Shown: positions 1-33,549 of the stretch, piece by piece
How the letters are laid out: the number at the start of each line of letters is the position of its first letter
Position numbering within the stretch: the stretch's first letter is position 1
Source of the DNA: an uncultured Bacteroidales bacterium
Lineage (GTDB): Bacteria > Bacteroidota > Bacteroidia > Bacteroidales > F082
Assembly (NCBI GenBank): GCA_900318465.1
Contig: ONKQ01000023.1
Coordinates: forward strand, 1 to 40,183
Direction: 5' to 3'
Length of the DNA stretch: 40,183 nt
Program-made: the position numbers and the translations under genes
Notes under the pieces: model-generated
Told to the model about the DNA's origin: nothing
The model's input: the letters and a program-made list of their open reading frames with translations, nothing else
Database searches by the model: none

Positions 1-111
1 TTCCTTGGTCTTGAAAGGCTTAAAGTGTTCCTGTATCATAAACGAGAACAGGAAGACCATCAGGAGGCCGAAGAGAATGCCGTAGAATATGTTGCCGTTG
101 CCTTTTTTCAT
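1..111 (-). CDS. Partial membrane-anchored protein, N-terminus only (runs off the window)
   Basis: Only the first 37 residues are present; the gene continues beyond the left edge. They contain a short Lys-rich start, then one hydrophobic segment of about 18 residues (IFYGILFGLLMVFLFSFM) followed by a polar stretch. This fits an uncleaved signal anchor such as those starting the neighbouring AlgX-like proteins, so it may be a further member of the same O-acetylation operon. The start codon overlaps the stop of the upstream gene as ATGA (108-111), which supports translational coupling and fixes the start. The product family cannot be named from the visible part. Confidence 0.6.
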   Translation of the reverse strand, partial: MKKGNGNIFYGILFGLLMVFLFSFMIQEHFKPFKTKE

Positions 112-1454: not shown

Positions 1455-2938
1455 CAGAACCTAAAGTAAATGAACGGACTAAAACCGCTGGCGTTCAACG
1501 CGCCAAGGCAGAAGACGAAAGCGCAGATGCTGACCACGAAGGCGATAATATGCTGCCGCTTGTTGTATTCGGTGAAATAGACCTTGTCCTGCACCTTGAG
1601 GCCGAACTTCGACAGGGTGAAGAACGAGAAGAAGGCCGCCACGAGCATGGTGACGTAAAGGTGTGGGTTGTCGCTGAAGTGGAACGGCGCAAAGTCGAAG
1701 GCGAAGAGGCGCTTGATGAAGAGCCACGATAGGTCGATGCGCTCGATGCGGAAGAAGCAGCGTGTCAACACGATGATGAGGAAAGTGAAGAACACGCTTG
1801 GGATGCGCCCCAACCGCTCGTTGAATTTCTTCAAGAACAGCTTGTCGGCGCAGATGAAGATGCCTTGCAAAGCGCCATAGACGACGAAGTTCCATGCCGC
1901 GCCATGCCACAAGCCACTGACTAAGAAGCAGAACCAAAGGTTGAAGTATTTCCTCGCTTCGGTTTTCACGCGGCTGCCGCCCAAGGGGAAGTAGAGGTAG
2001 TTCTTGATGAACACGCTGAAGGTTTGGTGCCAACGACGCCAAAACTCCGAAATCGTGGTGGAAACGTAAGGATTGTCGAAGTTCTCAGGGAACTTGAAGC
2101 CCATCATGCGGCCTAAGCCTATGGCCATGTCGCTGTAGCCTGCAAAGTCGAAATAGATTTGGAAGGTGAAGGCGAAGATGGCAATCCAAGCCGTGGTCGA
2201 GTCGATGGTGGCAATCTTGTTGGCGATGTCGGCAAGCTGGGCCGAGGTCAAAACATCATAGTTCGATGGCCCCAGCACCTGATCGACTTGGAAACCAATG
2301 ACATCGGCAATCAGCACTTTCTTTGCCAAGCCGATGACAAAGCGGTAAAAACCATGCAAACGGTCAGTATAAAGCGATTCGCGGTTGCGGATTTGGTCGG
2401 CAATGTCGCAATAGCGCACGATGGGGCCTGCGATGAGCTGCGGGAACATGACGATGTAGAGCATGTAGTCGCTCAACCGTTTCATCGGGGCATTGACACC
2501 ACGGTAGGTATCGAGGGTATAAGTCACACTTTGGAATGAGAAGAACGAGATGCCGATGGGCAATAAAATAGTTGAAAGTTGAGAGTTGAGAGTTGAGAGT
2601 TCCACTCCTGTAATCCAACTTCGTATGGCATTGATGTTGTGCATCGTGAAGTTGCCGTACTTGAAGTAGAACAGCAACCCGATGCTGATGGCAATGCTGA
2701 TGCCGCAGAGCAGTTTCTTCAGTCCAGGTTTCTCTGTTTTGTTCATCCATCGCACCAAGTAGAAGTTGGCGATGACCGACACGATGAGATGAATGATGAA
2801 CTCAGGCGCGCCGTAGGCGTAGAAGACCAACGAGGCCAGCAGCAGGAAGTAGTTGCGGACTTTCCTCGGCAGGATGAAATACACCAGGAAGAACACTGGC
2901 ATGAAGTAAAGGAGGAAGACGTTGCTGCTGAATACCAT
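1454..2938 (-). CDS. MBOAT family membrane O-acyltransferase (MBOAT-2, AlgI/DltB-like)
   Basis: This 494-residue polytopic membrane protein belongs to the AlgI/DltB branch of membrane-bound O-acyltransferases, which pass acyl groups across the membrane to a periplasmic partner. Family hallmarks visible are PQLIAGPIVRY, FWRRWHQTF, NYLYFPLGGSR and GLWHGAAWNFVVYG, with the expected catalytic His at residue 345 of WHGA. It is a close paralogue of MBOAT-1 at 4931-6388. One inter-membrane loop differs: a heptad DNA repeat at 2571-2602 encodes LSTLNSQLST there. It lies 35 bp after AlgX-B and its stop overlaps the start of AlgX-C (TGATG), so an acyltransferase and its presumed periplasmic partner are translationally coupled. 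Confidence 0.9.
   Translation of the reverse strand: MVFSSNVFLLYFMPVFFLVYFILPRKVRNYFLLLASLVFYAYGAPEFIIHLIVSVIANFYLVRWMNKTEKPGLKKLLCGISIAISIGLLFYFKYGNFTMHNINAIRSWITGVELSTLNSQLSTILLPIGISFFSFQSVTYTLDTYRGVNAPMKRLSDYMLYIVMFPQLIAGPIVRYCDIADQIRNRESLYTDRLHGFYRFVIGLAKKVLIADVIGFQVDQVLGPSNYDVLTSAQLADIANKIATIDSTTAWIAIFAFTFQIYFDFAGYSDMAIGLGRMMGFKFPENFDNPYVSTTISEFWRRWHQTFSVFIKNYLYFPLGGSRVKTEARKYFNLWFCFLVSGLWHGAAWNFVVYGALQGIFICADKLFLKKFNERLGRIPSVFFTFLIIVLTRCFFRIERIDLSWLFIKRLFAFDFAPFHFSDNPHLYVTMLVAAFFSFFTLSKFGLKVQDKVYFTEYNKRQHIIAFVVSICAFVFCLGALNASGFSPFIYFRF
2571..2602. repeat. AACTCTC-type heptad array inside the MBOAT-2 coding sequence
   Basis: Tandem copies of a 7-bp unit (GTTGAGA on the plus strand) lie in frame within MBOAT-2. 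The same unit occurs between genes at 6395-6447, at the 3' end of AlgX-A (6635-6652) and between susD and the PNGase gene (12501-12545). MBOAT-1 lacks it at the equivalent position. Confidence 0.8.
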
Positions 2939-2973
2939 GATCTATCGTTTGTTTTAGGTTGCAAAAGTAGTAA

Positions 2974-4689
2974 TTATTTCAATTGTGGTATTGGAATTTC
3001 GGCATCGGGGTCGTCGATAAGAAGGTAACGGTCAAGGCCGTATTTTTCCCTGACCAACCAGATGGCGGCATCTTCAATGGCTTTCTCCATCGGTTTGTGG
3101 CGTTTTTCAGCATCTTTGCGAATGTGTTCCATGAGTTCCGCATTGCTCGGAATCCTTTCGATGCGTCCCCTGACTTCCTCTTGGCATTGCCGCGCAAACT
3201 GAATTTCGGCAGTTTGGTCCTTATAGAGCGGCTTGACTGCCTTAATACGGTCCACCTCGGCATGGAGCATCTGATTCATGTTGGCGCCACGCAAAAACGC
3301 CTGCGCCTCCAAAGCGGCCATCCAAAGGCTGTCCTTGCGGATGTCCTTGATGACCTTGGCGTAGGGGATGTTGCGGTTTTGGGTGTTCAAGTTTTCACTG
3401 TTGAGTTCGGGAATAAGTTCGGGATGGTTGTTGAGGATGCTGATGGCCTTTTGTCGGCGGATGGTGTCAGTCGTGAACAAGGAAAGTGTGTCGGCAATGC
3501 GTTCAATGTAGGCCTGCCTGATGCTGTCGTCAATGCCCAGGGTAAGGATGGCAGAATTGGCGAAACCATTGGTGCCTTTGTTCAATTGGTTGCCCGTGGT
3601 GAGCCACACGATGTAGTCGAAATCCAATAGTTTTTCCAACAAGTTATAGTTGACGACGTGACCGATAGGCTGCAACGGGTCGCCGGTATAAACCGTTGAG
3701 AAATAGTACCAAAACTCCACCTCGCTGAACACTTCCGACAAAGGGACATGGTTCGCTATGCCCCACATGAAGGAATTTCCAATAAACAGCACCTTGGGGT
3801 TGACGCTGTTAGGATTAGTCTCCACCGTGACCTCAGCCGTGGGGCTGTAGCCTTGGCGTTTCCTAATGGGCAGCGTGAGGTTGAGCAGTTGCTCCAGGTC
3901 GTTGTCGGCACCGTGGTTGTCGCTTTCGTGCAACTCCCCCATCTTGAGTTTCGGGAGCTCGGCACCTTTCAATTCGCCCATGAAACGGAACAACGAATCG
4001 GCGGCATACACGGCAGGGAAGACCCAGTGGCCTCCCGTTTGCGGTATCAACGGATAGTCAACGGTGTCTTTCATCTGCTGGAACCAACGGTTCATGTCGA
4101 TGCAAGGAAAACCGATATCTTCAAACTGTTGCATGAAATAGGAACAAGCATTGAAGGTGGTCGTATCACGCTCGCGTTCAGGCAAATATTCAGGATAGAG
4201 AAAACTCTTCTCAGGGGCGATGAAAGCCAACAGCTCCACGCCGTTTTCCTTGAGAATGGCACGCACACGGTTCATGTATTTGATTTCTCGGTCGAAGTTG
4301 CGTTGGGCGGCTTTGGGCGAAGGTTGCCAGCGGAGCATCTCTGTCCCATAGTAATCGCTGACACTTTCAGGGGTGTAGAGCCACCCTTGCCGACCCGCCA
4401 CCACATTTTGGGCGTAAGTCTTTTTGTAACAAGTCCATAGATATTGGTTGTAGAGCCGGATGACAGACTCGCGAAAGCCGAAATGCTCGCCCACATAGGC
4501 TTCTTCTTGCTTGGCATAATCGCCTGAACGATAGGATTCCATGCCAAACTTGGGCTTTTCCGTTTCGATGGTCATTCCGTTCAAAGGCTTCAAAGGGATG
4601 TGCAAGACGTGAGCTTGCAGCATAGGCAAGAAGAGCAACACCATCAAAATGGCGAACAGGACGATGTCGTATATTGGCTTCTTACTCAT
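2974..4689 (-). CDS. AlgX/DHHW-like SGNH-fold O-acetylation protein (AlgX-B, long form)
   Basis: This 571-residue paralogue of AlgX-A and AlgX-C has an N-terminal anchor (about residues 6-26), then the shared TEKPKF, HFGFRE and YNQ motifs. The putative catalytic residues are His221 (GGHW) and Ser306 (FIGNSF, a degenerate GDS motif). It is about 120-170 residues longer than its paralogues: after the SGNH core it carries a charged, probably helical C-terminal extension from about residue 370 to the end. It sits between MBOAT-1 (242 bp upstream) and MBOAT-2 (35 bp downstream). The likely role is acetylation of a cell-surface or exported glycan together with an MBOAT partner. The extension has no function I recognise. 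Confidence 0.75.
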   Translation of the reverse strand: MSKKPIYDIVLFAILMVLLFLPMLQAHVLHIPLKPLNGMTIETEKPKFGMESYRSGDYAKQEEAYVGEHFGFRESVIRLYNQYLWTCYKKTYAQNVVAGRQGWLYTPESVSDYYGTEMLRWQPSPKAAQRNFDREIKYMNRVRAILKENGVELLAFIAPEKSFLYPEYLPERERDTTTFNACSYFMQQFEDIGFPCIDMNRWFQQMKDTVDYPLIPQTGGHWVFPAVYAADSLFRFMGELKGAELPKLKMGELHESDNHGADNDLEQLLNLTLPIRKRQGYSPTAEVTVETNPNSVNPKVLFIGNSFMWGIANHVPLSEVFSEVEFWYYFSTVYTGDPLQPIGHVVNYNLLEKLLDFDYIVWLTTGNQLNKGTNGFANSAILTLGIDDSIRQAYIERIADTLSLFTTDTIRRQKAISILNNHPELIPELNSENLNTQNRNIPYAKVIKDIRKDSLWMAALEAQAFLRGANMNQMLHAEVDRIKAVKPLYKDQTAEIQFARQCQEEVRGRIERIPSNAELMEHIRKDAEKRHKPMEKAIEDAAIWLVREKYGLDRYLLIDDPDAEIPIPQLK

Positions 4690-4930
4690 GCTTTTACATT
4701 AGTATTCAAAAACGAAGAACCTGTTATTTAACAATGTGAATGAAACGATGCGTCGCTTTGCGTCATTGCGAGGAGGAACGACGAAGCAATCCAGGGTAAT
4801 GCTTCATGAACGATTGGCACAACAACTTGTATTGAGGCTTCATGCCTGGATTGCTTCACTGCGTTCGCAATGACGCGAAGCGGCAGACGAGTCTCTCGCA
4901 ATTTATGTAAGCTAAACACGCTCATTATTT
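4690..4930 (-). other. Intra-operon spacer with conserved segment, repeat R1 and short reading frame
   Basis: The spacer between MBOAT-1 and AlgX-B carries the R1 inverted repeat (4761-4875). Near the MBOAT-1 end is a short conserved sequence, ATGAGC followed by TTTAG, that is also seen in the spacers at 6389-6628 and 7823-8041. A 65-codon reading frame runs through it, but its peptide is just the translated repeat, so I do not call it a gene. Confidence 0.6.
4761..4875. repeat. Dispersed inverted repeat, copy R1 (CGTCATTGCGAGGAGG family)
   Basis: The ends CGTCATTGCG and CGCAATGACG are inverted, and further inside CAATCCAGG is matched by CCTGGATTG. At 115 bp it is the longest of the four copies in the window. 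It is a non-coding, REP/MITE-like element with no transposase nearby, able to form a long hairpin in the operon mRNA. Confidence 0.85.
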
Positions 4931-6388
4931 TTAGAATCTAAAGTAAATGAACGGACTAAAGCTCGTAGCATTGAGTGCAGCCACGCAGAAGATGAACATG
5001 ATGGCAGCCACAATCCACACCCAGATATGCTGGCGGTCGGTGAAGTCGGTGTAGTAGGCCTTTTCTTGCCAGCGTTGCCCGAATTTCGTCAGTGTGATGA
5101 AAGAGAAGATGGCTGCAATCACCATAATGGTATAGACATGGGCATTGCCATCAAAGGCGAATCCGCTGAAGTCGAAGGCGAACATGCGTGTGACGAAAGT
5201 CCAGGCCAAGCCGATGTTCTCGATGCGGAAGAAGACCCAGATGATGCACACCGTAATGAAGGTAAGGACGACAGACGGGAGTGTTCCTATCCGTTTCATC
5301 ACCTTGCCGAGGAAGAGTTTGTCGGCGCAGATGAAGAAACCGTGCAGCGCGCCCCAAACGACAAAGTTCCAGCTGGCACCGTGCCACAATCCAGAAAGAA
5401 GGAAGCAAATCCACAGGTTGAGGTACATCCGGCTTTTGCCTTTGCGGTTGCCGCCAAGCGGGATGTAAAGGTAGTTCATGATGAAAGCGCCGAGGGTTTT
5501 GTGCCAACGTCTCCAAAACTCGGAGATGCTGCGCGAAGTGTAAGGATTGTCGAAGTTTTCGGGGAACTTGAAGCCCATGATGCGACCCAAACCGATGGCC
5601 ATATCGCTGTAGCCAGCAAAGTCGAAATAGATTTGGAAGGTGTAGGCCAAAGCGACGAGCCAAGCCGTACCTGTGTCCAAGGTGGCAATACGGGTGGCGA
5701 TTTCAGAAAGCGCACCGGCGCTGAGGTCGGCGGCACCAAGAATCTGGTCGACACGCAAACCGATGACATCGGCAATAAGGACCTTTTTGCACAAACCTAT
5801 GACGAAGCGATAGAACCCCTGCAAGCGGTCGGCCCAAGTCGACTCACGATGGCGGATTTGTTCGGCCACGTCGCAATAGCGCACGATGGGGCCAGCAATC
5901 AGCTGCGGGAACATGGTGATATACAGCATGTAGTCGCTCAGCTTGCGCAATGGCTGGTTGACGCCTCGGTAGGTGTCCAAAGTGTAGGTGACGCTCTGGA
6001 ACGAGAAGAACGAGATGCCAATGGGCAGCATGATGCGTTTCCACGTCAAAGGGGCATGTCCTGTGAGGCCTATCAGGGCGTTCAGGTTTTGCATGGTGAA
6101 GTTGCCGTATTTGTAAACCAGCAACAATCCCAAGGGTATGGCGATGGAAATGCCACAGAGCCATTTTCGCTTTCGAGGATTCGTGGTGACACACATCCAT
6201 TTCACCAAGAGGAAATTGAGTATGGTGGAGACCACAAGTTGGATGATAAACTCGGGAGCGCCCCAAGCATAAAAAATCAGCGAGGCCAGCAAAAGCACAT
6301 AGTTGCGCGTCTTCTTCGGCATCAGGAAATACACCAAGAAGAAGGCTGGCATGAAGTAGAGAAGAAATACGTTACTGCTGAAGACCAT
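4931..6388 (-). CDS. MBOAT family membrane O-acyltransferase (MBOAT-1, AlgI/DltB-like)
   Basis: This 485-residue polytopic membrane protein is the paralogue of MBOAT-2. It shows the MBOAT signatures PQLIAGPIVRY, FWRRWHKTLGAF, NYLYIPLGGNR and GLWHGASWNFVVWG, with the expected catalytic His at residue 336. The family moves acyl groups, usually acetyl, from a cytoplasmic donor to an extracytoplasmic carrier; in the alginate system AlgI works with AlgJ, AlgF and AlgX. The N-terminal segment MVFSSNVFLLYFMP is identical in the two paralogues and supports this start. Spacers of about 240 bp with related repeats lie on both sides, unlike the tightly packed MBOAT-2/AlgX-C pair. Confidence 0.9.
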   Translation of the reverse strand: MVFSSNVFLLYFMPAFFLVYFLMPKKTRNYVLLLASLIFYAWGAPEFIIQLVVSTILNFLLVKWMCVTTNPRKRKWLCGISIAIPLGLLLVYKYGNFTMQNLNALIGLTGHAPLTWKRIMLPIGISFFSFQSVTYTLDTYRGVNQPLRKLSDYMLYITMFPQLIAGPIVRYCDVAEQIRHRESTWADRLQGFYRFVIGLCKKVLIADVIGLRVDQILGAADLSAGALSEIATRIATLDTGTAWLVALAYTFQIYFDFAGYSDMAIGLGRIMGFKFPENFDNPYTSRSISEFWRRWHKTLGAFIMNYLYIPLGGNRKGKSRMYLNLWICFLLSGLWHGASWNFVVWGALHGFFICADKLFLGKVMKRIGTLPSVVLTFITVCIIWVFFRIENIGLAWTFVTRMFAFDFSGFAFDGNAHVYTIMVIAAIFSFITLTKFGQRWQEKAYYTDFTDRQHIWVWIVAAIMFIFCVAALNATSFSPFIYFRF

Positions 6389-6394
6389 ATTTGT

Positions 6395-6447
6395 CAGTTT
6401 AGAGTTTAAAGTTAAGAGTTGAGAGTTAAGAGTTGAGAGTTAAGTGA
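6395..6447. repeat. AACTCTC-type heptad array upstream of MBOAT-1
   Basis: About seven imperfect copies of GTTGAGA, GTTAAGA and GTTTAGA lie between repeat R2 and the MBOAT-1 start. Related to the arrays at 2571, 6635 and 12501. Confidence 0.75.
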
Positions 6448-6495
6448 GTGTTTAAAATTCAACTGTTTTATCTTTTGACTTCGGGACACGCTTCG

Positions 6496-6573
6496 CGTCA
6501 TTGCGAGGAGGAACGACGAAACAATCCAGGGTTTAAGCTGATTGTATAGACTGCTTCGTGCCTTGCAGTGACG
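6496..6573. repeat. Dispersed inverted repeat, copy R2
   Basis: Same family and orientation as R1 and R3: it starts CGTCATTGCGAGGAGG and ends GCAGTGACG. About 78 bp, the same length as R3, to which it is most similar. Confidence 0.85.
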
Positions 6574-6628
6574 CAAAGCGCGTCTCGTGTCTCGCAGTCT
6601 AATATGTAAACTAAATTTGCTCATCTAC

Positions 6629-7822
6629 TTAATAATTTAAAGTTGAAAGTTCTTGTTTTTGTCTTATTTTCCGCAACAGGGTCTCACTGAAGCCGTTGCT
6701 CATCTCGTAGAGTGTCCCTGTGGAATAGGATAGCATCACAAAATCAGCGTCAATGACCTCTTGTAGCACGTCCAATTCGCCGATTTTATGGGTCACTTTA
6801 AGGTCGTCGTCATCGAAAAAAGCAGTGCTGAAGTAATACCAATAGGGAACTTTCTCGAACAAGTCCCACACGGGGATGAAGTTGAGGATGTTCCAATAAA
6901 ACGAGTCGCCGATGGTTATGAGGGTGGGTCGCACTACGGTGCTGTCGTAGTCGGGATAGGCGAATGACAAGCGGTTGGGCTGTTTTTTCACGGGCCAGAT
7001 GAGGTTGAGCAGGCTCTCAAGGTCGGCGTCGGGTTTCAAGGTTCGCTGAAAGTCTTTATCTAACAGGATGTTCATCATATTGATGCCTGCAAGGTTTTCC
7101 ATATAGCGCACCAAAGTGTCGGTGGCATGTTGGGCGGCAAGGTTGCTCCAGTGGGTTCCCGTTTGCGGGAACAGAGGCCAACTCACCGTGTCTTTCATCT
7201 GCATGAACCATTCGGCGAAATTCACATGATTGATTCCCAGCTCCTTAAAACGTTTGGCATAAAACTCGTATGCCGTGATTTTTTTCTCCCTACTATAATG
7301 AAAGCCTTTCGGGATATGCTCGCCACAAATCTGCTCCTTGCCAGGCAACAAAGCCACAAAGAGATGGGTATTGTAAGGCTCAAGGGCTTGTTGCAATTCA
7401 AGTATCCTTTGTGCTTCAGCCTCAAGCTTTTGGGCCATTTCCAACGAATCTACGGCATAGTTGTAGGAACGGCTTTGGTAGTATTCCTCCACCGTCCAAG
7501 GTTCAAACATCCAATTGTCGTCGGTGATGATAACGCGCTTGTCCTCAACCACTTTGGCATAACGGAAGAAAGTCCAGAGAATCTGGTTGTAAAGTCGGGT
7601 CAAAGGCTCGCGGAAACCGCAGTTTTGCTTGAGATAAGCCTCAACGTCACGCTGGAAAGTCCCGTGGAGGAAGCTCTCTGAGGTCAACTCAGGTTTTGTT
7701 TGCGTTTCCGTCACGCCGTTCAACTCCTTGAATTTGAAAAGCCCCGTCCCCTGCTGTATCGCAAAAGCGCACAACATCAGGATGGTCAAAACAATCAATA
7801 TGGCTTTCGTTCTGCTTTTCAT
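6629..7822 (-). CDS. AlgX/DHHW-like SGNH-fold O-acetylation protein (AlgX-A), C-terminus probably shortened
   Basis: This 397-residue protein is the first gene of the minus-strand O-acetylation operon. It has an N-terminal anchor (about residues 6-24), then the shared TKPEL, NCGFRE and YNQ motifs, His224 in GTHW, and Ser307 in an intact GDS motif (TIGDSFYW). It is 51 residues shorter than AlgX-C and 174 shorter than AlgX-B. Its last residues, ELSTLNY, and its stop are encoded by heptad-repeat and spacer DNA (6629-6652) rather than by sequence resembling the paralogues. The SGNH core is complete, so it may still work. A TAnnTTTG box lies upstream at 8034-8041. Confidence 0.75.
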   Translation of the reverse strand: MKSRTKAILIVLTILMLCAFAIQQGTGLFKFKELNGVTETQTKPELTSESFLHGTFQRDVEAYLKQNCGFREPLTRLYNQILWTFFRYAKVVEDKRVIITDDNWMFEPWTVEEYYQSRSYNYAVDSLEMAQKLEAEAQRILELQQALEPYNTHLFVALLPGKEQICGEHIPKGFHYSREKKITAYEFYAKRFKELGINHVNFAEWFMQMKDTVSWPLFPQTGTHWSNLAAQHATDTLVRYMENLAGINMMNILLDKDFQRTLKPDADLESLLNLIWPVKKQPNRLSFAYPDYDSTVVRPTLITIGDSFYWNILNFIPVWDLFEKVPYWYYFSTAFFDDDDLKVTHKIGELDVLQEVIDADFVMLSYSTGTLYEMSNGFSETLLRKIRQKQELSTLNY

Positions 7823-8084: not shown

Positions 8085-9824
8085 ATGAAAACCACGAAAC
8101 TCGAACTTCTGTCACCCGCCAAAGACTGTGCGGTGGGCATTGCTGCCATCAATCATGGTGCCGATGCCGTCTATATCGGTGGCCCCGACTTCGGCGCCCG
8201 CGAAAAGGCATCCAACTCAATTGAGGACATTGAAAAACTGTGCCGTCATGCGGCCTTGTATGACGCCAAAGTGTACGTCACGCTGAACACTTTGCTGTAT
8301 GACAACGAATTGGAACGCGCCCGAAAGATGGCCTACGACTGCTGGAATGCCGGCGTCGATGCGCTCATCGTTCAGGACATGGTATTGCTCCAATTGGACT
8401 TGCCCCCTATCCCACTCCACGCCAGCACCCAATGCGACAACCTGACCGTCGAAAAGGTGCAACAGCTTGAAAGCCTTGGATTTAGCCAAGTGGTCTTGGG
8501 TCGAGAGTTGAGTCTCAAGCAAATCAGGGAGATTCGGGAAAAGACGACGGTGCCTTTGGAGTTTTTCATCCACGGCTCGCTTTGCGTCAGCCATAGTGGG
8601 CGATGCTACTTGAGCCAATATGTGGGCAACCGCAGCGCCAACCGAGGTGCCTGTGCCCAGCCCTGCCGCCTGCCCTACGACCTTTTGGACGTCAAAGGGA
8701 AGGTGTTGGTCAAAAACCGCCACCTGCTTTCGTTGAAAGACTTGAACAACAGTGCCCACCTTGAAGAACTCATCGACGCGGGCATCACGAGCTTCAAGAT
8801 TGAGGGTCGCCTGAAAGATGCTGACTATGTGAAGAATGTGACGGCATATTACCGCCAGAAATTGGACGACATTATTGAACGCAGGGAGGAATATGTACAA
8901 TCCTCACGTAGAGACGTACGGCCGTACGTCTCTACGTTTGAGGTCAATCCTGAGAAATCGTTCAACCGAGGCTTCACCGATTTTTTCATCAACGGACGAC
9001 AAAAAGGCATCGATTCGCCCTTTACTCCGAAATCAATGGGAGAATACATCGGCACGGTCAGCTGGTGCAATAGCCTCCGTATGGAAATCGACACCGACAA
9101 GACCCTGCACAACGGCGACGGGCTGTGTTTCCTAAACGAGGACAACGAACTACAAGGGCTTCGTGCCGATGTGGTGAATGGCAACACGGTTTCGTGCAAC
9201 CGTCCTCACGGCGCGCAACGCGGCACGAAACTCTACCGCAACTACGACATCGAATGGCAACGCCAAGTGGATGCCTCGACGGGAAACCGAAAGATGGACA
9301 TTGATTTGGTGTTGGCCGAAACAGAAAACGGCTACGAGTTGAGTTGTAAAGACACACGGACGTGTGTCTCCACCACCATCCAATGCGACAAAATAGCGGC
9401 AACCAACCCCGAAAAGGCTACCGAAAACATCAAAAAGAAGGCCTTGCAATGGGGCGACACAGCGTTCAACCCCGTAAGTTTGAAGCTGGACTTTCAGGAG
9501 CCGCGCCTCATCCCCGCATCCATCTTGGGCGAATTGAAACGCGATTTGGTGACCAAATTGGAAACGGAACTGATTGAGTCACACAAAAACAACAGACCCC
9601 AACGCAAGGAAAGCGTGTTGCCCGCCGATGCCATAAAGAGAACCGACCCCGACGAAATACCGGATGCATTGATGACTTCGCACCATTGCATCCGGTATGC
9701 TAACGGGATGTGCAGCAAAGAGACAGGGCTGCGGGCCGAACCACTCTATCTGCGCAACGGCGACCGCCTGTTCCGCCTTGAGTTTGACTGCCGCAATTGC
9801 CTCATGCGCGTTCTTACTGTATAA
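8085..9824 (+). CDS. U32 family protein, RlhA-like (predicted 23S rRNA C2501 hydroxylation)
   Basis: This 579-residue protein belongs to the U32 family; its E. coli relative RlhA makes 5-hydroxycytidine in 23S rRNA. Visible are the N-terminal barrel start ELLSPAKD, a GADAVYIGG turn, and the cysteine-bearing signature GSLCVSHSGRCYLS then RGACAQPCR, whose cysteines may hold an Fe-S cluster. These are followed by SFKIEGRLK and a collagenase-like/DUF3656-type region around FNRGFTDFFINGRQKG. The C-terminus has further cysteines (HHCIRYANGMC, FDCRNCLMR). Two related palindromic DNA repeats are in frame at 8906-8937 and 9346-9373. The 3' end overlaps the convergent PNGase gene by 11 bp. Family sure; exact rRNA target inferred. 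Confidence 0.85.
   Translation: MKTTKLELLSPAKDCAVGIAAINHGADAVYIGGPDFGAREKASNSIEDIEKLCRHAALYDAKVYVTLNTLLYDNELERARKMAYDCWNAGVDALIVQDMVLLQLDLPPIPLHASTQCDNLTVEKVQQLESLGFSQVVLGRELSLKQIREIREKTTVPLEFFIHGSLCVSHSGRCYLSQYVGNRSANRGACAQPCRLPYDLLDVKGKVLVKNRHLLSLKDLNNSAHLEELIDAGITSFKIEGRLKDADYVKNVTAYYRQKLDDIIERREEYVQSSRRDVRPYVSTFEVNPEKSFNRGFTDFFINGRQKGIDSPFTPKSMGEYIGTVSWCNSLRMEIDTDKTLHNGDGLCFLNEDNELQGLRADVVNGNTVSCNRPHGAQRGTKLYRNYDIEWQRQVDASTGNRKMDIDLVLAETENGYELSCKDTRTCVSTTIQCDKIAATNPEKATENIKKKALQWGDTAFNPVSLKLDFQEPRLIPASILGELKRDLVTKLETELIESHKNNRPQRKESVLPADAIKRTDPDEIPDALMTSHHCIRYANGMCSKETGLRAEPLYLRNGDRLFRLEFDCRNCLMRVLTV
8906..8937. repeat. Perfect 32-bp palindrome within the U32 coding sequence
   Basis: The half-site ACGTAGAGACGTACGG is followed by its exact reverse complement. 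It encodes about RRDVRPYVST in frame. It belongs to the same family as 9346-9373 and 36475-36503 (ends GTAGAGACG and CGTCTCTAC). Confidence 0.9.
9346..9373. repeat. Second palindromic element within the U32 coding sequence
   Basis: Arms AGACACACG and CGTGTGTCT around a 2-bp centre, encoding KDTRTCVST in frame. Aligned over 28 bp, it differs from the core of the 8906 copy at only a few positions. Confidence 0.85.
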
Positions 9825-12480
9825 TCACCTTCTTGGTCACCACCTGGCCTCCGATGACATGGACAAAGTAGAGACCCGACGAAAGGTCGCTTACATCGAT
9901 GGTACGCTTGCCATCAACGCTGAAGCCTTTCACCTTGACACCTTGCGAGTTGATGATGACAACGCTGGCTTTACCTTTGTCGTAATCGGTCGTGATGGTC
10001 ATTTGGCCTTTCACGGGGTTGGGGGTGATGCTCACTTGGAAGGGTTCCGCATCCACATCGGGCATCTCAGGGACTTCCGTCAGGATGTCGGTGTTGTGGC
10101 TGTAGGTCACTAACTTACCTGAAACCCTCAGAATCGGGTTGCTGGAATTGTCGCAGTTCGGGCAACTGTTCTGGCCGCTCACACAGTCGGGATAGTTGGG
10201 GTGGCATTGGTCGACGTAGGTCGGGTCGAACTCATAAAGCAGGTCGGCGTGACCATCGGCGAGGTAATCGTCGAGGCTGTAATTCCACACCATGGCCATA
10301 CTGCCAGGGCACCATCCTGCACGGGAATAGGTCCAGGTGCCGTTTTGGGGCTGGCAACCAGCCGGATTAGGAGTACAAGCCTCCCACAAGTGCTGCGTAT
10401 AAGTCGTGGCACCATTAATCTTGACATTGTGCGTGGCTTCGTAGAACTCGGCGGCATTGCCTGTGTTGTAGGCACCGTTTTGGGTATCGCTCCAGTTGTG
10501 GCCAGAAGTCGTGATTTGCAGTTTGGCCTTCTCAACACAGGGGTCAAACTCGACATTGCGCGTCGGTACGGGGCAAAGGTTTTCGTAATCTCCGAAGGAA
10601 TAGTTGCCATACCACAGTTCCCGCAGGTCGACGTAAGGATACTCTGGTGTGCCTTTGGTGTACTCGAAAATGGCGGTGGGATTGTAGCCCTGACCCGTTG
10701 CATATTGCTCGCTATAGTATTCAAATTCAACAAGTCCCTGCAACACTGAGGTGAAGTCGGTCACATCGAGGTCGTCGATACATTCCACACCAAACGGGGT
10801 GATATAGCGGCAAAGTTCCACCCATTCGCCACGGTAGTTCTTCACACGGACGTAACTAATGTGGTCGTAGGTGTTGCAATCACCGTTCACGCAATTGTGG
10901 AGATAATGCAAGTTGATACCATTGAAGGCGTTGACATGGGTCGGGAAGGGGAATTCGCCGTAGGCCGTGAAGTCCTGAGTGGTGGCTACCACTTCGCCAT
11001 TGAGGGCTGAAACTACCATGTCGTCATAGTCGGTGGTCACTTCAAAGGTGTTGGAGGCCGTCGTGACTTTGCCGCCGGTTTGGGTGATCGAAACAGTCAT
11101 GTTGTAGGTGCCTACGCCCGAAGGAGTCCATGTGGTGTACCAATAGCCGTTGTCGGGGTTGTCGGGATAGTCGGTCTTCAAGTACAGTTCTTGTCCGTCG
11201 ACGGAGCATTTCACCTGTTCAAACTTGAGCACGGTACCGTGGTCGATATACGCACTCAGCACCACCATTACGGGGTTCTCGAAGTTGGGCATAAAGACCT
11301 TAGTGCCTTCGTAAGGACGGCGGATAGTGATTTCGGGAGCATAATTCTCAGGGTCAACCACATAGAAGGTGCGCGTCACCGTGGGAGCGGCCTGCCATTG
11401 AGTGCCGTCGCCAGCCTGGATGGCACTAACTCTCACAGTACCTTCCTCGCCAGTAAGGGTCAGGATGTTGCCCTCAACGGTGGCAGGGCCTTGAACGACC
11501 TCAAAGGTCACAGGAAGTCCTGAAGTTGCAGTAGCTTGCAGGTTGATAGGCTCATTGTAGACCAACTGGTCGGGGATTTCGGCAAAGTCGATGAACTGAG
11601 CCGTCAAACCACCAGGGATATGGCGCAGGGTAAGGTTGTCGAAGCCGCACCAGCCGCTGTTGAGCATAAAGATGTAATGCCATGTTGCGGGGTCAAACTT
11701 GTCGCCGCTGCCAGGGGTCAAACCAATATTGATGCCTTGACATTCTGGCACAGCTTCCCATTCGCCTCCAAGAATGTCGTACTTCACGTAAAGGGTAACG
11801 GCACCAGCGCCGCCATTGGCGTCAAGGTCGATGGAGACCTTCCAGCGAATCCAAGTGTTATCAGGAACGGGGGGATTCAAATCACAAGTCTTGGTGTTGT
11901 TAGGCAACACTACACCGCAAAAGAAGTCAGTGTCTTCGGTATTACCCGTGGTCAGCATGTAAATACCGCCGTCAGGCGAAGTGCTTTGGTCGTCGGGCCA
12001 GATAGGCTCGTAGTTCGCGTTGTGGTTAGGAGCTTTGCGAATTGGGGGAAGGACAGAACCGTCGCCATTGCCGTCATATCCGATGCCGAAGAGGGTGCCC
12101 CACCATTGGCGCAACACATCACATTCGACCTCGATGATGCCTCCGTCCGAGAAATCGAAACCATACTCTGTAATGTCGTGAGTGGCGATGTCGCCAAAGC
12201 CGGTACCCGAGGCATGTGAGAACACACCTATGGTTTCGTCAGCCGTTGGCGTCATTGGCGTGTTACCCCAGAAATGCCCTAAGTAATCGGTGTACATGGG
12301 ACCCATGTTGTTGCCACCGTTACCGGCACTGTGAGCCTTTACATACCACCCATCCTGGCCATTAAGGCGATTCAGCGGTTCACCAGATCCATAGTCGTTG
12401 AAGTCGAAAGTCTTTTCAACTTGGGCCATCAGCCCGATGCTCATTAGCATCATCATAAGGAAGAATAATGTCTTTTTCAT
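9814..12480 (-). CDS. Secreted PNGase F-like N-glycosidase with T9SS sorting domain
   Basis: This 888-residue protein has a signal peptide ending ...GLMAQ, a lectin-like N-terminal half, and an Ig-like linker region (about 290-490). A region from about 500 to 770 then resembles peptide-N-glycosidase F, which removes whole N-glycans from Asn. Local matches include a CxxxxC-x3-D-x4-YVRVKN block, an EWVELCRYITPF block, DVTDF, GTPEYPY and RAGWCPGS. The three PNGase F catalytic residues D60, E118 and E206 correspond by my alignment to D539, E591 and E678, with near-equal spacing (52 and 87 residues against 58 and 88). The C-terminus is a T9SS type A sorting domain. The MKK start at 12480 is chosen for its signal peptide. 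Last gene of the susC-susD unit. Confidence 0.85.
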   Translation of the reverse strand: MKKTLFFLMMMLMSIGLMAQVEKTFDFNDYGSGEPLNRLNGQDGWYVKAHSAGNGGNNMGPMYTDYLGHFWGNTPMTPTADETIGVFSHASGTGFGDIATHDITEYGFDFSDGGIIEVECDVLRQWWGTLFGIGYDGNGDGSVLPPIRKAPNHNANYEPIWPDDQSTSPDGGIYMLTTGNTEDTDFFCGVVLPNNTKTCDLNPPVPDNTWIRWKVSIDLDANGGAGAVTLYVKYDILGGEWEAVPECQGINIGLTPGSGDKFDPATWHYIFMLNSGWCGFDNLTLRHIPGGLTAQFIDFAEIPDQLVYNEPINLQATATSGLPVTFEVVQGPATVEGNILTLTGEEGTVRVSAIQAGDGTQWQAAPTVTRTFYVVDPENYAPEITIRRPYEGTKVFMPNFENPVMVVLSAYIDHGTVLKFEQVKCSVDGQELYLKTDYPDNPDNGYWYTTWTPSGVGTYNMTVSITQTGGKVTTASNTFEVTTDYDDMVVSALNGEVVATTQDFTAYGEFPFPTHVNAFNGINLHYLHNCVNGDCNTYDHISYVRVKNYRGEWVELCRYITPFGVECIDDLDVTDFTSVLQGLVEFEYYSEQYATGQGYNPTAIFEYTKGTPEYPYVDLRELWYGNYSFGDYENLCPVPTRNVEFDPCVEKAKLQITTSGHNWSDTQNGAYNTGNAAEFYEATHNVKINGATTYTQHLWEACTPNPAGCQPQNGTWTYSRAGWCPGSMAMVWNYSLDDYLADGHADLLYEFDPTYVDQCHPNYPDCVSGQNSCPNCDNSSNPILRVSGKLVTYSHNTDILTEVPEMPDVDAEPFQVSITPNPVKGQMTITTDYDKGKASVVIINSQGVKVKGFSVDGKRTIDVSDLSSGLYFVHVIGGQVVTKKVIIQ

Positions 12481-12500
12481 AATATTAAATTTTATAACCA

Positions 12501-12545
12501 TTAACTCTTAACTTTTAACTTTAAACTATTAACTCTAAACTATTA
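12501..12545. repeat. AACTCT-type heptad array between susD and the PNGase gene
   Basis: Repeats of TTAACTCT, TTAACTTT and AAACTATT fill nearly all of the 62-bp gap and reach the susD stop codon. Opposite orientation to the arrays at 2571, 6395 and 6635. Confidence 0.75.
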
Positions 12546-14231
12546 AAAATCCATCCACCACACCTTGGTCTGCCTCGTGTCGCCATGAGACATACGGGCA
12601 AGTTGGTTGGTATAGTTCTCATAATTGTATTCGATTTCCTTCTGAGGATATTCCATGCGGTAGGAAGTCAGTTTGGCGTGGTCGGTGGTGGTAGGTGTCG
12701 CCTTGGTGCGGCGTGCCAATGCCCAGGCCTCCCAAGGCTGACGGAAGAGGTTGAGCCAACGTTGCTGATAGACCATCTTCAAATAAAACTCCTGACTGCC
12801 GTCATATTCAGGATTCATCCATACGGCATAGTTCATCACATTGGCTGCCATGTTGTTGCAATACGACCAAATATCCAAATTGCCGATATAATTAGTGTAC
12901 TGGGGATAGAAATACTGCCAGCGGCTGGTGTACTGCGGAATGTGGGTCCAGAAGAGGAAGGACTGATACACTCCAGCGCGGATGGACTCGTCGGCATTGA
13001 GGGGTGGCGTGATGCCGCCGATGTTTCTGACCTCAATCTCGGCCTTCATGAAGAGCACGTCGGCGTAGGTCACAAGAATCTGGGGCATATATTTCTCATC
13101 CCTTGTCAGATAGTAATTGAACGGCGAGAACAGGCACGAAGGGCCTTTGAAGGTGTAGCTGCCGTCGCGACTCTGTGCGTAAGGCGATCCGCCTTCAGTG
13201 GGAGTCTCATCGGTGCGAATCTGGGGATAGGGCTTCCATGCGCCATCGGGGAAGCTGTCGGTCTTGTGACTGGTGTCGAAGAAGAGGTAGGTACGGTAGT
13301 CAAAGATGCCGCTTCCGTCCATGTCGTCGGTCGAAGAGAGACAGCTCCACACGGTTTCGCCCATACGGAGGTGCTTGTGCTCGCGGAACGACCAGTTGAT
13401 GTCCCAATTGGTACCCAACACACTGGGCCACAGACAGATGCCACCACCTGTAGCACCACCGCCCGAAGAGCTCATCTTGGTGTAGATGAAGTTGTAAGCC
13501 TCCACCAAAACGGGCGTGGCGTATTCTGAATCCTTATCGTACATTCGCAAGGCATGGCGCAAGATGAGCGAGTTGGCAAACTCAGCCCAGAGGGTGTAGT
13601 CGTTGTTGAGCAACACATCGTAAGGCAGCTTGTAATACTCGTTGCCGCTTGCGGTGGTTACCGAGTCGGCACGAAGAACGTCACGCGACCACACCAACTC
13701 CTCCAACAGCGATTTGTAGATGCTTTCTTGGGTGTCCCATTCGGGTTTCATGGTGGCCTGCGAAGAGGGGTTCTCCCAAATACGGCCCGCCTGCGAATAA
13801 GGCATGTCGCCGAAGATGTCCGTGACTTTGAAAGTCTGATAGGCCTTCAGTATGTTGAGCTGGGCGCGCACCTTGTCGCAAATGGCAGGGTCGGCCTGCT
13901 CTTCGCCGTAGGCATCTAAACGTTTTTCCAACTCACGGATATTGGTCAACATAAGGTAATAGTCCGACCAAACATTTGAGGTTCCGATTTGCGAGTTTCC
14001 CCAAGCCTCTGAAGTCAAGGCACCAAGTTCGGTTTCGGGATACCAAATCTCGTTTTGCAGATAGAACTGCTCGTTCATGCTCTGCTGCAATGAACTCACC
14101 ACGCCGTTAAACAAAGCCTCAACCGTGGTTCCCGTCGGCGAGAACGGGTCTTGGTTCATCTGTTCGAAATTCTTGGTGCAGGAGGTGAAAACCAACGTGG
14201 CTGCACAAATTATTAATAAACTCTTTTTCAT
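12543..14231 (-). CDS. SusD/RagB-like nutrient-binding outer-membrane lipoprotein
   Basis: This 562-residue lipoprotein has a signal ending in the lipobox VFTSC and then KNFEQMNQDPFSPTG, typical of the SusD-like_2 branch, which caps a SusC transporter at the cell surface and binds the substrate. The middle and C-terminal parts contain the helical repeats of the family, and near the end TSYRMEYPQKEIEYN, a conserved terminal block. The start at 14231 gives a compact signal peptide; an upstream ATG seven codons earlier would add a poor hydrophilic lead. It lies 161 bp after susC, with a hairpin-forming spacer between. The substrate is likely a glycan, glycopeptide or peptide exposed by the downstream PNGase; this is inferred from context. 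Confidence 0.9.
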   Translation of the reverse strand: MKKSLLIICAATLVFTSCTKNFEQMNQDPFSPTGTTVEALFNGVVSSLQQSMNEQFYLQNEIWYPETELGALTSEAWGNSQIGTSNVWSDYYLMLTNIRELEKRLDAYGEEQADPAICDKVRAQLNILKAYQTFKVTDIFGDMPYSQAGRIWENPSSQATMKPEWDTQESIYKSLLEELVWSRDVLRADSVTTASGNEYYKLPYDVLLNNDYTLWAEFANSLILRHALRMYDKDSEYATPVLVEAYNFIYTKMSSSGGGATGGGICLWPSVLGTNWDINWSFREHKHLRMGETVWSCLSSTDDMDGSGIFDYRTYLFFDTSHKTDSFPDGAWKPYPQIRTDETPTEGGSPYAQSRDGSYTFKGPSCLFSPFNYYLTRDEKYMPQILVTYADVLFMKAEIEVRNIGGITPPLNADESIRAGVYQSFLFWTHIPQYTSRWQYFYPQYTNYIGNLDIWSYCNNMAANVMNYAVWMNPEYDGSQEFYLKMVYQQRWLNLFRQPWEAWALARRTKATPTTTDHAKLTSYRMEYPQKEIEYNYENYTNQLARMSHGDTRQTKVWWMDF

Positions 14232-14270
14232 AGTGATATTCTTTTTTGTCACAAAACCTTCAAAACCCGA

Positions 14271-14392: not shown

Positions 14393-17300
14393 CTATAGAC
14401 TGACTTTAAGGTTTAACATAAACGACCGTGAACCGGGATAGGAGGCATACTCCAGACCTTGGGCATTGCCTGAGCCTTGGGTGCCTTCGGGGTTGATGTT
14501 GTCGGGCAGGGTCTTGTAGATATAGAACAGGTCGCGACCCACGAGGGAGATGGAGGCCTGCTTGAAGAGGTTCTGCTTGTCCATCCACTTGCGCGGGAAA
14601 TCGTAGGTGAGCGAAATCTCGCGCATCTTGATCCATGAGTTGTTGACGATGCCAGGCGTGGTGAGGTAAGGACCCCAGCCGCCAAAGTTGGGCATATATT
14701 TATAAAGGTAATGCACCACATTCTCGTTTTGGTGCGCCTCACCCGTCTCGGTGTTGATGCAGTAACCCGGCAAAATGATGCCATAATTGCCGAAGAACTC
14801 GCCGTTTTCGTAATACGGCAGGCCGTTGCCTTCGCGCTCGTAGAGCGTCTCAAGGCTCTGACCCGTCTGCATGGCCACCACGTAGGAGGCGCAATAAATC
14901 TGTCCGCCCAACTTGGCATCAACCAAGGCATAAAGCGACCAGTTCTTGTAGGAAGCCCTCAGATTGATACCGCCTGTCACCAAGGGGGCGCAATTGCCCA
15001 CCGGCACACGGTTGTCAGTCTTCAGGTAAGTGGTTCCTGTTTCATTCAGCAAAGGCATGGGTTTGCCATTGGCGTCGTAGAAGGGTCCCACGGTGGTGCC
15101 GTCGGGCATGGTGTATTCATACACATAATCCCATCCGTAGATGGTGCCATACTCCTCCCCTTCTTCCACAGCGATGGCCGGGCCATTCGAGCCCCAAATC
15201 TCCGAGAGCATGTACATATTGGCACCCGCCAAATCGACGATGCGGTTCTTGTTGCGAGCCAAGTTCAGGCCAACCTGTACGCCGTAGTCCTTGCCTTGTG
15301 CAACGTCGTAGGTCAAAATGGCCTCGATGCCCTTGTTGGTCACCATGCCCGTGTTGATGGTCACGTTGCTGGCACCTGACGAAGGTGCAAGTGGCGACGA
15401 AAGAATCTGGTCCCAACTGTAGATGTCGTAATAGGTGAAGTCCATATTGAACCTTGCCCCTAATCCGATATCGAAGCCCAATTCAAAGGAGCGTTGCCGT
15501 TGGGGTTTCAGCTCTAAGGGCGGCACGGTGGAAGGCAAGACTGCCGACAGCTGATGTCCGAACGAACCCGTGTTGTAGGTGTAGGTCAGCTGATACGGCT
15601 CGGTGTCGCTTGCGGTCTGAGCCCATGAACCTCTAAATTTCAGGAAACTGACCGGACCCCAGTTCCAGTTCTTGAAGGCTGAAGTGGGGACAAAACTCAA
15701 AGTGGCCGAGGGATAGAAGTAGCTGTTGTTGTTGATGGGCAAGGTCGACGACCAGTCGTTGCGGCCTGTCACATCGAGGAACAGCCAATCGCTATAACTG
15801 AGGTTGAGGAAGGAGTACAACGAATTGACCTGCTTCTCCCACTTCGACTCACCGAAAACGCGCTCGGTAGCGGCTGAATAGTTGTAGATAGTGTATAAAT
15901 TAGCATACGCCCAAGTGCCTGACGTGCCGTTCAGTCCATCGCGGTAGCCGTAGTATTGCTCACCGCCTACCGAGAAACGCACATTGAGCTTTGTGTCGAA
16001 AATCTTTTCCTTATGCGCCGTGATGAGGAAGTCCATATCGCGGGTCATCGAGCTTGACTTGCTCTTCGAGTAGTAGCCGCCTGCCATACCGTCAATGGTG
16101 GTGGGCTTGTGCGTAGTGATGTAATTGTCTCCAGTCCAGTCTAAGGCTACCTTGGCCGAGGCAGTCAACCACGGTGTGACATCGTAAAACAGGCGTATCG
16201 ATCCGTACATCTTGTCGCGGTCGAGGGTCGTGTTGTTGTTGAAGAAGGTCCAGAATGTGCTGCTGTAAATATAAGGATAAGGATAGCCGTCAAATTGGTT
16301 CATCGTGCCGTCCTCGTTCTCGTAAGTCGTGGCCTCAATGCCTTTCCAGCTGCGGGGCCAGCTGTAGAGCAAGCCCTTGTTGAAGTTGCTGTTCGACTCA
16401 CCAATTTCAGGCGAGTTGAGGCGGTGGTAGTCCAAATAGGTGAAGGCCACATCGGCTTTGATTTTCTCCGACACATTAATTAATGTACCCACATTGACGG
16501 TGGTCTGCCGCAGGTCGCAGTTGTCGATGATGGCGTCGGTGCGCGAGTCGGTGAAGGAAACGCGGACGCTGCCGAAATCGCCGGCATTCTGGAAGGCCAC
16601 GTTGTGGTTCATCGTGTGTCCGTTCTTGAAGAGCATCTTCAAGTTGTTGGGCTGCGGGTCGAATTTGCGTATCTGGCCGTCCCACCACAGCACACTCTCG
16701 CCGTTCATCGATGGACCCCAACTCTGGGCGCCGCCATAGTAACCGAAGGTGGTGTTGGTGGGTTCGCCCGCCGGACCGTTGTCGACGCTATAAGTATACG
16801 GAAATTCATACACTTGGTTGCCGTTTTCGTCGGTCATGCCTTCGATGGGTGTCAAAGTAGGCGTTTGGAAAATGATGGGGCCGCAACCGCCGTATTTGTT
16901 CTGCACTGTGCGGTAGAGATAAGGCGTAGTAATCTTGAAGCCAGCCGAATAGCTGATGCCGAGGCCGCGTTGCTTCGAGCCTTTCTTTGTGGTGATGAGC
17001 ACCACACCGTTGCCGCCACGCGAGCCGTAAAGAGCCGCTGCCGTGGGGCCTTTCAGGATGTCGAGGCTCTCAATGTCCTCCTGGTTGATGTTGTTGAGGG
17101 CCGTACCCCAGTCGCGTCCGCCGCTCCATTCAGTAACGCCGCCTTCGTTGGTCATCGGCACACCGTCCACCACGATAAGCGGCTGGTTGTCGCCAAAGAT
17201 GCTGTTGTTGCCACGGATGGTGATACGCGCCGCGCCGCCGTCAACGCCGTTAGGGTTGATGATTTGCACACCCGCCGAGCGGCCGCTCAAGGCGTTGATG

Positions 17301-17719
17301 ACATTGCCCGAGCCTGATTTGGCAATCACGTTGCCGTCGATTTCCTCGGTAGCGTAGCCCAGCTCGCGTTTCTGTCGTTTGATGCCAAGAGCCGTAACCA
17401 CCACATCGTCAAGCATCTGGTTGTCCGACTCAAGCGTGACATTGATTTTCGTTTTGCCTTTGATGGCAACCTCCTTGGTCTTATAGCCCACGAAGCTAAA
17501 GGCCAACACATCATTGCTGTCGGCAGTCAACGAGTAATTGCCATCAAAGTCGGTGACAGTTCCTGTTGATGTGCCTTTCACCCTGACGGCAACACCTGGT
17601 AGGCCCATGCCGTCGTCGCCTGAAATGACCTTGCCGCTCACCGTCAGGCTTTGTGCGAGCACAGAAAGGGGCGAGACCATCAAGGCCAAAAAGAGTAAGA
17701 GTAAGAATTTTCTGTTCAT
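14393..17719 (-). CDS. SusC/RagA family TonB-linked outer-membrane transporter
   Basis: This 1108-residue protein has a signal peptide (MNRKFLLLLFLALMVSPLS) and then a carboxypeptidase-regulatory-like domain (about 27-105, GMGLPGVAVRVKGTSTGTVT, TDFDGNYSL). A TonB-box-like DDVVVTALG precedes the plug domain (about 115-240, with RGNNSIFGDNQPLIVVDGVP and GPTAAALYGSRGGNGVVLIT). The remainder is a large beta-barrel ending in the aromatic-rich FMLNLKVSL. Together with the adjacent SusD it forms an uptake complex powered by TonB. It is the first gene of the unit and has a TAnnTTTG -7 box at 17745-17752. No ECF sigma/anti-sigma pair is next to it. The downstream PNGase-like gene suggests glycoprotein-derived substrates. 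Confidence 0.95.
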   Translation of the reverse strand: MNRKFLLLLFLALMVSPLSVLAQSLTVSGKVISGDDGMGLPGVAVRVKGTSTGTVTDFDGNYSLTADSNDVLAFSFVGYKTKEVAIKGKTKINVTLESDNQMLDDVVVTALGIKRQKRELGYATEEIDGNVIAKSGSGNVINALSGRSAGVQIINPNGVDGGAARITIRGNNSIFGDNQPLIVVDGVPMTNEGGVTEWSGGRDWGTALNNINQEDIESLDILKGPTAAALYGSRGGNGVVLITTKKGSKQRGLGISYSAGFKITTPYLYRTVQNKYGGCGPIIFQTPTLTPIEGMTDENGNQVYEFPYTYSVDNGPAGEPTNTTFGYYGGAQSWGPSMNGESVLWWDGQIRKFDPQPNNLKMLFKNGHTMNHNVAFQNAGDFGSVRVSFTDSRTDAIIDNCDLRQTTVNVGTLINVSEKIKADVAFTYLDYHRLNSPEIGESNSNFNKGLLYSWPRSWKGIEATTYENEDGTMNQFDGYPYPYIYSSTFWTFFNNNTTLDRDKMYGSIRLFYDVTPWLTASAKVALDWTGDNYITTHKPTTIDGMAGGYYSKSKSSSMTRDMDFLITAHKEKIFDTKLNVRFSVGGEQYYGYRDGLNGTSGTWAYANLYTIYNYSAATERVFGESKWEKQVNSLYSFLNLSYSDWLFLDVTGRNDWSSTLPINNNSYFYPSATLSFVPTSAFKNWNWGPVSFLKFRGSWAQTASDTEPYQLTYTYNTGSFGHQLSAVLPSTVPPLELKPQRQRSFELGFDIGLGARFNMDFTYYDIYSWDQILSSPLAPSSGASNVTINTGMVTNKGIEAILTYDVAQGKDYGVQVGLNLARNKNRIVDLAGANMYMLSEIWGSNGPAIAVEEGEEYGTIYGWDYVYEYTMPDGTTVGPFYDANGKPMPLLNETGTTYLKTDNRVPVGNCAPLVTGGINLRASYKNWSLYALVDAKLGGQIYCASYVVAMQTGQSLETLYEREGNGLPYYENGEFFGNYGIILPGYCINTETGEAHQNENVVHYLYKYMPNFGGWGPYLTTPGIVNNSWIKMREISLTYDFPRKWMDKQNLFKQASISLVGRDLFYIYKTLPDNINPEGTQGSGNAQGLEYASYPGSRSFMLNLKVSL

Positions 17720-33049: not shown

Positions 33050-33549
33050 TGGAACTGCGCCGTTGCCAACCTTCTGATTTACAAGCCGTCATCGACTTGA
33101 ACGAAACCATCTACGCTGCCTTGCCCGACAAGTCGGTGTTGCGTCACAACTCGCCTGAAATGATTGCTTCCTGCCTCGAAGAGCCGAATGTGACTTTGGG
33201 TGTATGGGATGGTAATTTGTTGGTAGCCATTGGGGTGCTTTATGTGCCGCAATGCATTGAAGAAGACCATTTCCACGACCTCGGGCTTCATGGCGACTAC
33301 CGTCCGGCCAACCAAAAGTTGTTCTTGGTGCGCGAGGGCTATCGAGGCTTAGGCTTGCAACGGCAACTCATCCGCGAAGTGGAAAAAGTCGCGATTTCGC
33401 GAGGCTACAACCTGCTTTGCACCACAGTTGCACCTAACAACGCATTCAGCATCAACAATTTCCTGAAAGAAGGCTACGTTTACGCCAAAACCGAAGAAAA
33501 ATATGGAGGGTTGGTAAGAAACCTTTATTACAAGACACTTACCTATTGA
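33049..33549 (+). CDS. GNAT family N-acetyltransferase
   Basis: This 166-residue protein has the GNAT fold, with acetyl-CoA binding loop around VREGYRGLGLQRQLIREVEK (about 92-111) and a late NNFLKEGYVY strand. The family acetylates small molecules or protein N-termini; the substrate here is unknown. The start overlaps the ade stop (TGATG at 33047-33051), indicating coupling. The 3' end overlaps the convergent esterase gene by 11 bp. Confidence 0.88.
   Translation: MELRRCQPSDLQAVIDLNETIYAALPDKSVLRHNSPEMIASCLEEPNVTLGVWDGNLLVAIGVLYVPQCIEEDHFHDLGLHGDYRPANQKLFLVREGYRGLGLQRQLIREVEKVAISRGYNLLCTTVAPNNAFSINNFLKEGYVYAKTEEKYGGLVRNLYYKTLTY

Follow-up and report, generated by a model that had tools for sequence, protein, structure and literature searches.

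Among the described systems, the type I enzyme PNGase F from Elizabethkingia meningoseptica (1pnf, 1pgs, 3pms) shares with the protein reported here the domain of two jelly-rolls as well as the residues Asp60, Glu118, Glu206, Arg248 and Trp251. The crystallised PNGase F lacks the lectin-like and sorting domains that are both present here, and its Trp59 and Arg61 are exchanged for Tyr538 and His540, which flank the catalytic Asp. We know of no SusCD operon for PNGase F. Type I enzymes exclude core α1,3-fucose, since Glu118 blocks it, whereas a Gly at this position makes room (available text of PMC9522356). According to the same text, the type II enzyme PNGF-II (4r4x) and the plant-glycan PNGase 7zgn carry such a Gly and an N-terminal bowl-like domain, in contrast to Glu591 of the present protein. 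Zebrafish Ngly2 (9lwg), unlike the protein described here, is an animal enzyme of the lysosome that carries a PA domain (PMC12753239, accessible sections). PNGaseDo from Draconibacterium orientale contains, as here, a PNGase domain with three β-sheet modules and a C-terminal T9SS signal (PMC12381499, accessible sections) and may belong to the same family, judged by description rather than by sequence. Most of the six PNGase genes treated in those sections are orphans, while an operon is described for PNGaseRz. An aromatic-Asp-positive/aromatic motif is broadly common to the PNGases examined in that paper, as is, with the exception of PNGase F, a His together with a Glu on another loop. In the literature covered, which did not extend to subscription papers and preprints, PMC12381499 was the only paper found on a PNGase with T9SS, and none was found that joins SusD, N-glycanase and T9SS, that treats PNGase, rumen, N-glycan and Bacteroidales together, or that deals with PNGase E118Q.

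Uptake of glycoprotein products by a SusC-SusD pair, as proposed here, is known from the Bacteroides N-glycan loci and from RagAB. These N-glycan loci encode GH18, GH92 and other hydrolases, and Bacteroides species possess dozens of SusCD pairs. In the operon described here, by contrast, the PNGase is the sole enzyme seen. The operon lies in the window, i.e. the whole stretch of 40,183 nucleotides from an uncultured Bacteroidales bacterium that was analysed. An earlier note had singled out the PNGase gene as such; its setting in a dedicated SusCD-PNGase operon, which is new, carries more weight. Besides the operon, that note does not cover the tandem paralogues or the exchanges at Trp59 and Arg61.

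Table 1. Coordinates of the SusCD-PNGase operon, its encoded domains and selected active-site codons in the window
Feature	Position	Strand	Basis or remark
Lectin-PNGase F-like protein, T9SS cargo, 888 aa	9814..12480	-	reading frame and profile searches
Putative signal peptide, residues 1-20	12421..12480	-	hydrophobic run
ConA-like/legume-lectin-like domain, residues 21-291	11608..12420	-	structure and sequence comparison
β-strand-rich, possibly Ig-like linker, residues 295-485	11026..11598	-	weak basis
PNGase F-like catalytic domain, residues 486-794	10099..11025	-	profile, sequence, structure
T9SS type A C-terminal sorting domain	9817..10029	-	TIGR04183
Asp539 codon, PNGase F Asp60 equivalent	10864..10866	-	kept in 114/114
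His540 codon, where PNGase F has Arg61	10861..10863	-	alignment
Glu591 codon, PNGase F Glu118 equivalent	10708..10710	-	kept in 69/114
His661 codon, [ST]GH run, probable place of PNGase F Trp191	10498..10500	-	run of letters and PMC12381499 (accessible sections)
Glu678 codon, PNGase F Glu206 equivalent	10447..10449	-	kept in 114/114
SusD-like lipoprotein	12543..14252	-	PF12771, PF12741
SusC/RagA TonB-dependent transporter	14393..17719	-	TIGR04056, 571 bits

The reading frame of the PNGase spans 9814-12501 and is thus open beyond the presumed start at 12480; this start is likely because the Met encoded there is unchanged across 13 aligned family members. The N-terminal domain adopts the ConA-like fold of legume-type (L-type) lectins, which bears out the lectin-like region proposed earlier. 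In its loop D-x-[DN]-x-[DN]-G the first Asp and the last Gly are invariant in 34 sequences, and the loop looks like a metal site. The domain may bind sugar, but a ConA-like fold alone is no proof thereof. The Ig-like region that had been proposed next to it stands on weaker ground: the structure model contains β-strands within residues 295-485, the Big_1 match of the window protein stays below threshold (14.5 bits, cut-off 34.9) and a Big_7 match barely above its cut-off (27.3 versus 24.1 bits) is found in the relative L117. The sorting domain, in turn, is confirmed by TIGR04183 with 46.2 bits (cut-off 23), and the T9SS translocon protein SprA (TIGR04189) is encoded in the same genome by a single frame of 2533 amino acids (1923.6 and 556.3 bits). 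At its 3′ end the gene overlaps that of a convergently oriented U32 peptidase by 11 bases (9814-9824).

Profile, sequence and structural matches all support the PNGase F-like catalytic domain. The sequence match to PNGase F (E 3.6e-28) rules out a chance resemblance, and the Pfam search proposed by the earlier note returned N-glycanase_C at 44.9 bits (cut-off 25). N-glycanase_N is not listed at E 0.1; the structural match spans residues 1-314 of PNGase F. The model predicts the double jelly-roll fold of the PNGase F superfamily, whereby absence of a chain from the structural match lists is no evidence against other folds. Counted from the start at 12480, residues 539, 591 and 678 are indeed Asp, Glu and Glu, and the four sequence motifs named previously are present. 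Asp539 and Glu678 form the Asp60/Glu206 pair of the superfamily, and Glu591 supplies the acidic residue that defines type I at position 118. For the Trp191 equivalent MAFFT places Trp663, while the run of letters points to His661. With Tyr538-Asp539-His540, and probably His661 along with Glu678, the protein fits the wider PNGase family. A His near the catalytic Asp has been suggested to aid activity in acid (PMC12753239, accessible sections). As Glu118 is described as the block to core α1,3-fucose (PMC9522356, available text), we infer that the Glu591-bearing window enzyme would prefer cores lacking this sugar.

Across the family, 165 reading frames with a catalytic-domain match yielded 114 distinct full domains, the other 51 being dropped as partial, weak or identical. 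The equivalents of Asp60, Glu206, Arg248 and Trp251 are invariant in all 114, each of which also contains the [ST]GH run (preceded by two Ser/Thr in 109 and by one in the remaining five). Position 59 is Tyr in 93 and Trp in 21 domains, and position 61 is Arg in 76, His in 31 and another residue in seven. At position 118, near which the alignment of distant members is less certain, Glu occurs in 69 domains, Gln in 16, Pro in seven, Gly in six, Asp in four, Val, Ser and Ile in three each, Thr and Ala in one each, and one domain has a gap. Consequently, the statement that all three catalytic residues are kept holds for the window copy and not for the family as a whole, and in print Glu118 is also a specificity gate; the residue was therefore abandoned as a basis for family membership. 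Positions 61, 118 and 120 vary whereas the catalytic residues do not, and nothing more is claimed, as their entropies (0.92, 1.08 and 0.82) are close to the column median of 0.92 in 89 near relatives. Among the same 89, a His at 61 is always paired with Glu at 118 (30/30). The pairing sits in two separate clades of a quick tree, so that few events are involved, and a coupled active-site change is possible.

The retention of Glu118 in just 69 of 114 domains, along with the replacement of Trp59 and Arg61 by Tyr and His in the window copy, could mean that copies with Gln, Asp or Val at 118, or even the entire family, are binding proteins or amidases of altered specificity in which deglycosylation is lost or changed. 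We consider this improbable, given the four invariant residues mentioned above. Moreover, type II PNGases are active despite their Gly at 118 (PMC9522356, available text), and fish Ngly2 is active with His in place of both Trp59 and Arg61 (PMC12753239, accessible sections). Paralogues bearing Gln, Asp or Val at 118 may nevertheless differ from the window enzyme in specificity.

The PNGase gene is the third in the order SusC-SusD-PNGase, with both transport genes upstream on the same strand, and the three genes are presumably co-transcribed; the operon claim is independent of promoter or terminator patterns. Although the SusC-SusD pair typical of a polysaccharide utilisation locus (PUL) is present, among the window proteins submitted to Pfam no glycoside hydrolase or other carbohydrate-active hydrolase or lyase turned up next to the operon. 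The locus is therefore termed a SusCD-PNGase operon rather than a PUL, and is not a usual N-glycan locus. Defining SusD linkage as a same-strand chain with gaps under 500 bp, 56 of the 114 domains are linked, 48 are not and ten lie at contig edges. In the clade of the window protein (YDH/EY) 17 of 22 are linked and four are at edges; the only unlinked copy, L060, has a SusCD pair 3.3 kb upstream. Of the YDR/QW copies, 14 of 16 are without SusD linkage. The order SusC-SusD-PNGase is repeated in relatives, with a single PNGase gene or up to four tandem copies; in a few clusters PNGase genes are located ahead of SusC (e.g. L043, L115, L117). The window genome itself has a second copy (L039) without SusD linkage.

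In the 198 genomes of the order, the window SusD was matched at E≤1e-40 in 19 genomes (22 matches). The catalytic-domain profile A3 at 1e-40 detected 21 genomes, including all 19 with SusD, and the two PNGase-only genomes represent weak matches (1e-54 and 1e-57). Adjoining PNGases accompany 21 of the 22 SusD matches, L152 being counted solely on a 29-bit PNGase start at a contig edge: in 17 the PNGase comes next within the fetched 1.5 kb, and in L150, L154, L155 and L156 SusD lies in clusters with PNGase. The exception is L140, whose genome encodes a PNGase on another contig. Fisher's test for this co-occurrence gives 1.4e-24, a value which, like that for the genus below, overstates the association, since the genomes have common ancestry, which leaves fewer independent events than genome counts imply, and many of them are incomplete.

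With TIGR04056, the window genome (98.9% complete) yields a single SusC above cut-off, at 571 bits against 77 bits for the next candidate, and genome-wide searches with PF12771 and PF14322 returned the window's SusD as the sole match. By these profiles, the pair seems to be the only importer of its kind in the genome. Within the genus, SusC (E≤1e-50) occurs in 72 of 99 genomes and is lacking in 27. Exactly one match is present in 70 of the 72; G256 has two and G277 two fragments, counted as a single locus (the second fragment is on C355) among 73 SusC loci. Genomes of the genus thus seem to hold at most one SusC-SusD pair, or none. Of the 41 SusC loci in the genomes also searched for PNGases, 28 have a same-strand PNGase no more than 12 kb away among the matches listed. 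One is present at 34 of the other 45 loci (the 13 left over from these 41 plus the remaining 32), so that 62 of the 73 lead into a PNGase in total. Three of the 11 exceptions are truncated at a contig end (L236, L245, L275), one (L260) is an unlike second SusC with 172 bits to that of the window, and seven SusCD pairs (L239, L242, L244, L246, L255, L257, L277) show no PNGase in the roughly 0.8-8.3 kb of available flank. Long-type PNGases, i.e. N-glycanase_C matches outside the strong, type II-like set, are found in 41 of 41 SusC-positive and in two of 19 SusC-negative genomes (G014 and G059; Fisher 4.4e-13, 60 genomes, among the matches listed). The type II-like PNGase, used as control, is untied to SusC with 29/41 and 15/19 genomes, respectively, again among the matches listed.

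A lectin-PNGase beside an apparently sole SusC-SusD pair suggests dedicated feeding on glycoproteins. Probably, the protein acts at the cell surface, strips N-glycoproteins by a predicted PNGase activity and feeds the dedicated SusCD. The type IX system would export it and hold it at the surface, where the ConA-like domain could bind a glycan of the glycoprotein. The PNGase F-like domain would cut the GlcNAc-Asn amide, with Asp539 as key acid and Glu678 as its partner, while Glu591 would close the pocket towards C3 of the core GlcNAc. The product would pass to the channel and lid formed by SusC and SusD, whose genes lie directly upstream and which may have little or no other task in this lineage. 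Breakdown of the freed glycans would fall to enzymes from other loci. Of 60 genomes from the genus, 59 contain GH92 and likewise 59 contain GH20, so that N-glycans would be usable; both also occur in SusC-negative genomes, and GH130 was found in none of the 60. In relatives, additional tandem copies differing at 61, 118 and 120 would allow more kinds of glycan core to be attacked. We lean slightly towards the broader view that this genus of gut Bacteroidales retains no more than one SusC-SusD pair, reserved for what surface lectin-PNGases release; these enzymes would have multiplied in tandem (up to four) and changed their gates at 61, 118 and 120, one importer thus being supplied by enzymes for different N-glycan cores without a glycoside hydrolase of its own. 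SusCD cargo is seldom guessable from sequence; here the tight co-inheritance and the near lack of any other SusC permit a guess that can be put to the test. For glycobiology, the tandem copies, which differ at the published gate for core α1,3-fucose, amount to a ready-made set of candidate enzymes for N-glycan release.

As imported product we rank the glycan (or glycopeptide) first and the peptide second. Removal of glycans might merely expose the protein, with the SusCD importing peptides like RagAB and the sugars being left or used by others. By sequence, BT2264 is the nearest SusC of known structure (260 bits, followed by 178 bits for the next and 138 bits for RagA), and the accessible part of PMC7782687 describes RagAB as a peptide importer and refers to a complex of Bt2263/64 with peptide; SusC similarity, however, is a weak guide to cargo. 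The absence of an adjoining glycoside hydrolase among the scanned window proteins would also agree with peptide import, as would T9SS-tagged M28-peptidase-related genes that abut a family member at four distinct loci (L050, L087 = L051, L094 and L102; the M28 assignment was checked with Pfam in L087 and L102), but three of these four neighbours adjoin copies without SusCD. Taking into account the near-universal GH92 and GH20 as well, peptide import is regarded as a tentative and rather doubtful alternative to uptake of the glycan.

The 77 named related loci are nearly all from uncultured Bacteroidota, the best segment of L079, filed as Candidatus Alcium sp. F082, being 87% identical. A herbivore name or the label RUG, which we take to mean rumen uncultured genome, appears in the titles of 40. 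Together with the predicted surface display, this would suit an operon for interaction with hosts or competitors, in which N-glycans are taken off secretory IgA or surface proteins of protozoa, with nutrition in second place. In view of the tight link to a nutrient importer this is very unlikely, and feeding on glycoproteins stays the preferred reading.

Strong N-glycanase_C matches were at first taken for ordinary type I enzymes, which proved wrong, since those examined have another N-terminus and type II-like motifs; loci L009-L038 gave no phmmer match to PNGase F at E 10. Of the 60 genomes from the genus, at least 44 carry this type II-like PNGase with its different N-terminus; in the window genome it is a separate gene on C27 (G000:C27:3937-4353; L032, L040). 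In G005, G015 and G054, among the matches listed, a GH20 match lies about 1 kb or less from it. Elsewhere in the window, a run of MBOAT and AlgX-like SGNH genes (108-7822, minus strand) probably serves O-acylation of a surface polysaccharide. Two further T9SS-tagged proteins are encoded on the same strand, one of endonuclease/phosphatase fold (27633-28934) and an α/β hydrolase (33539-34702).
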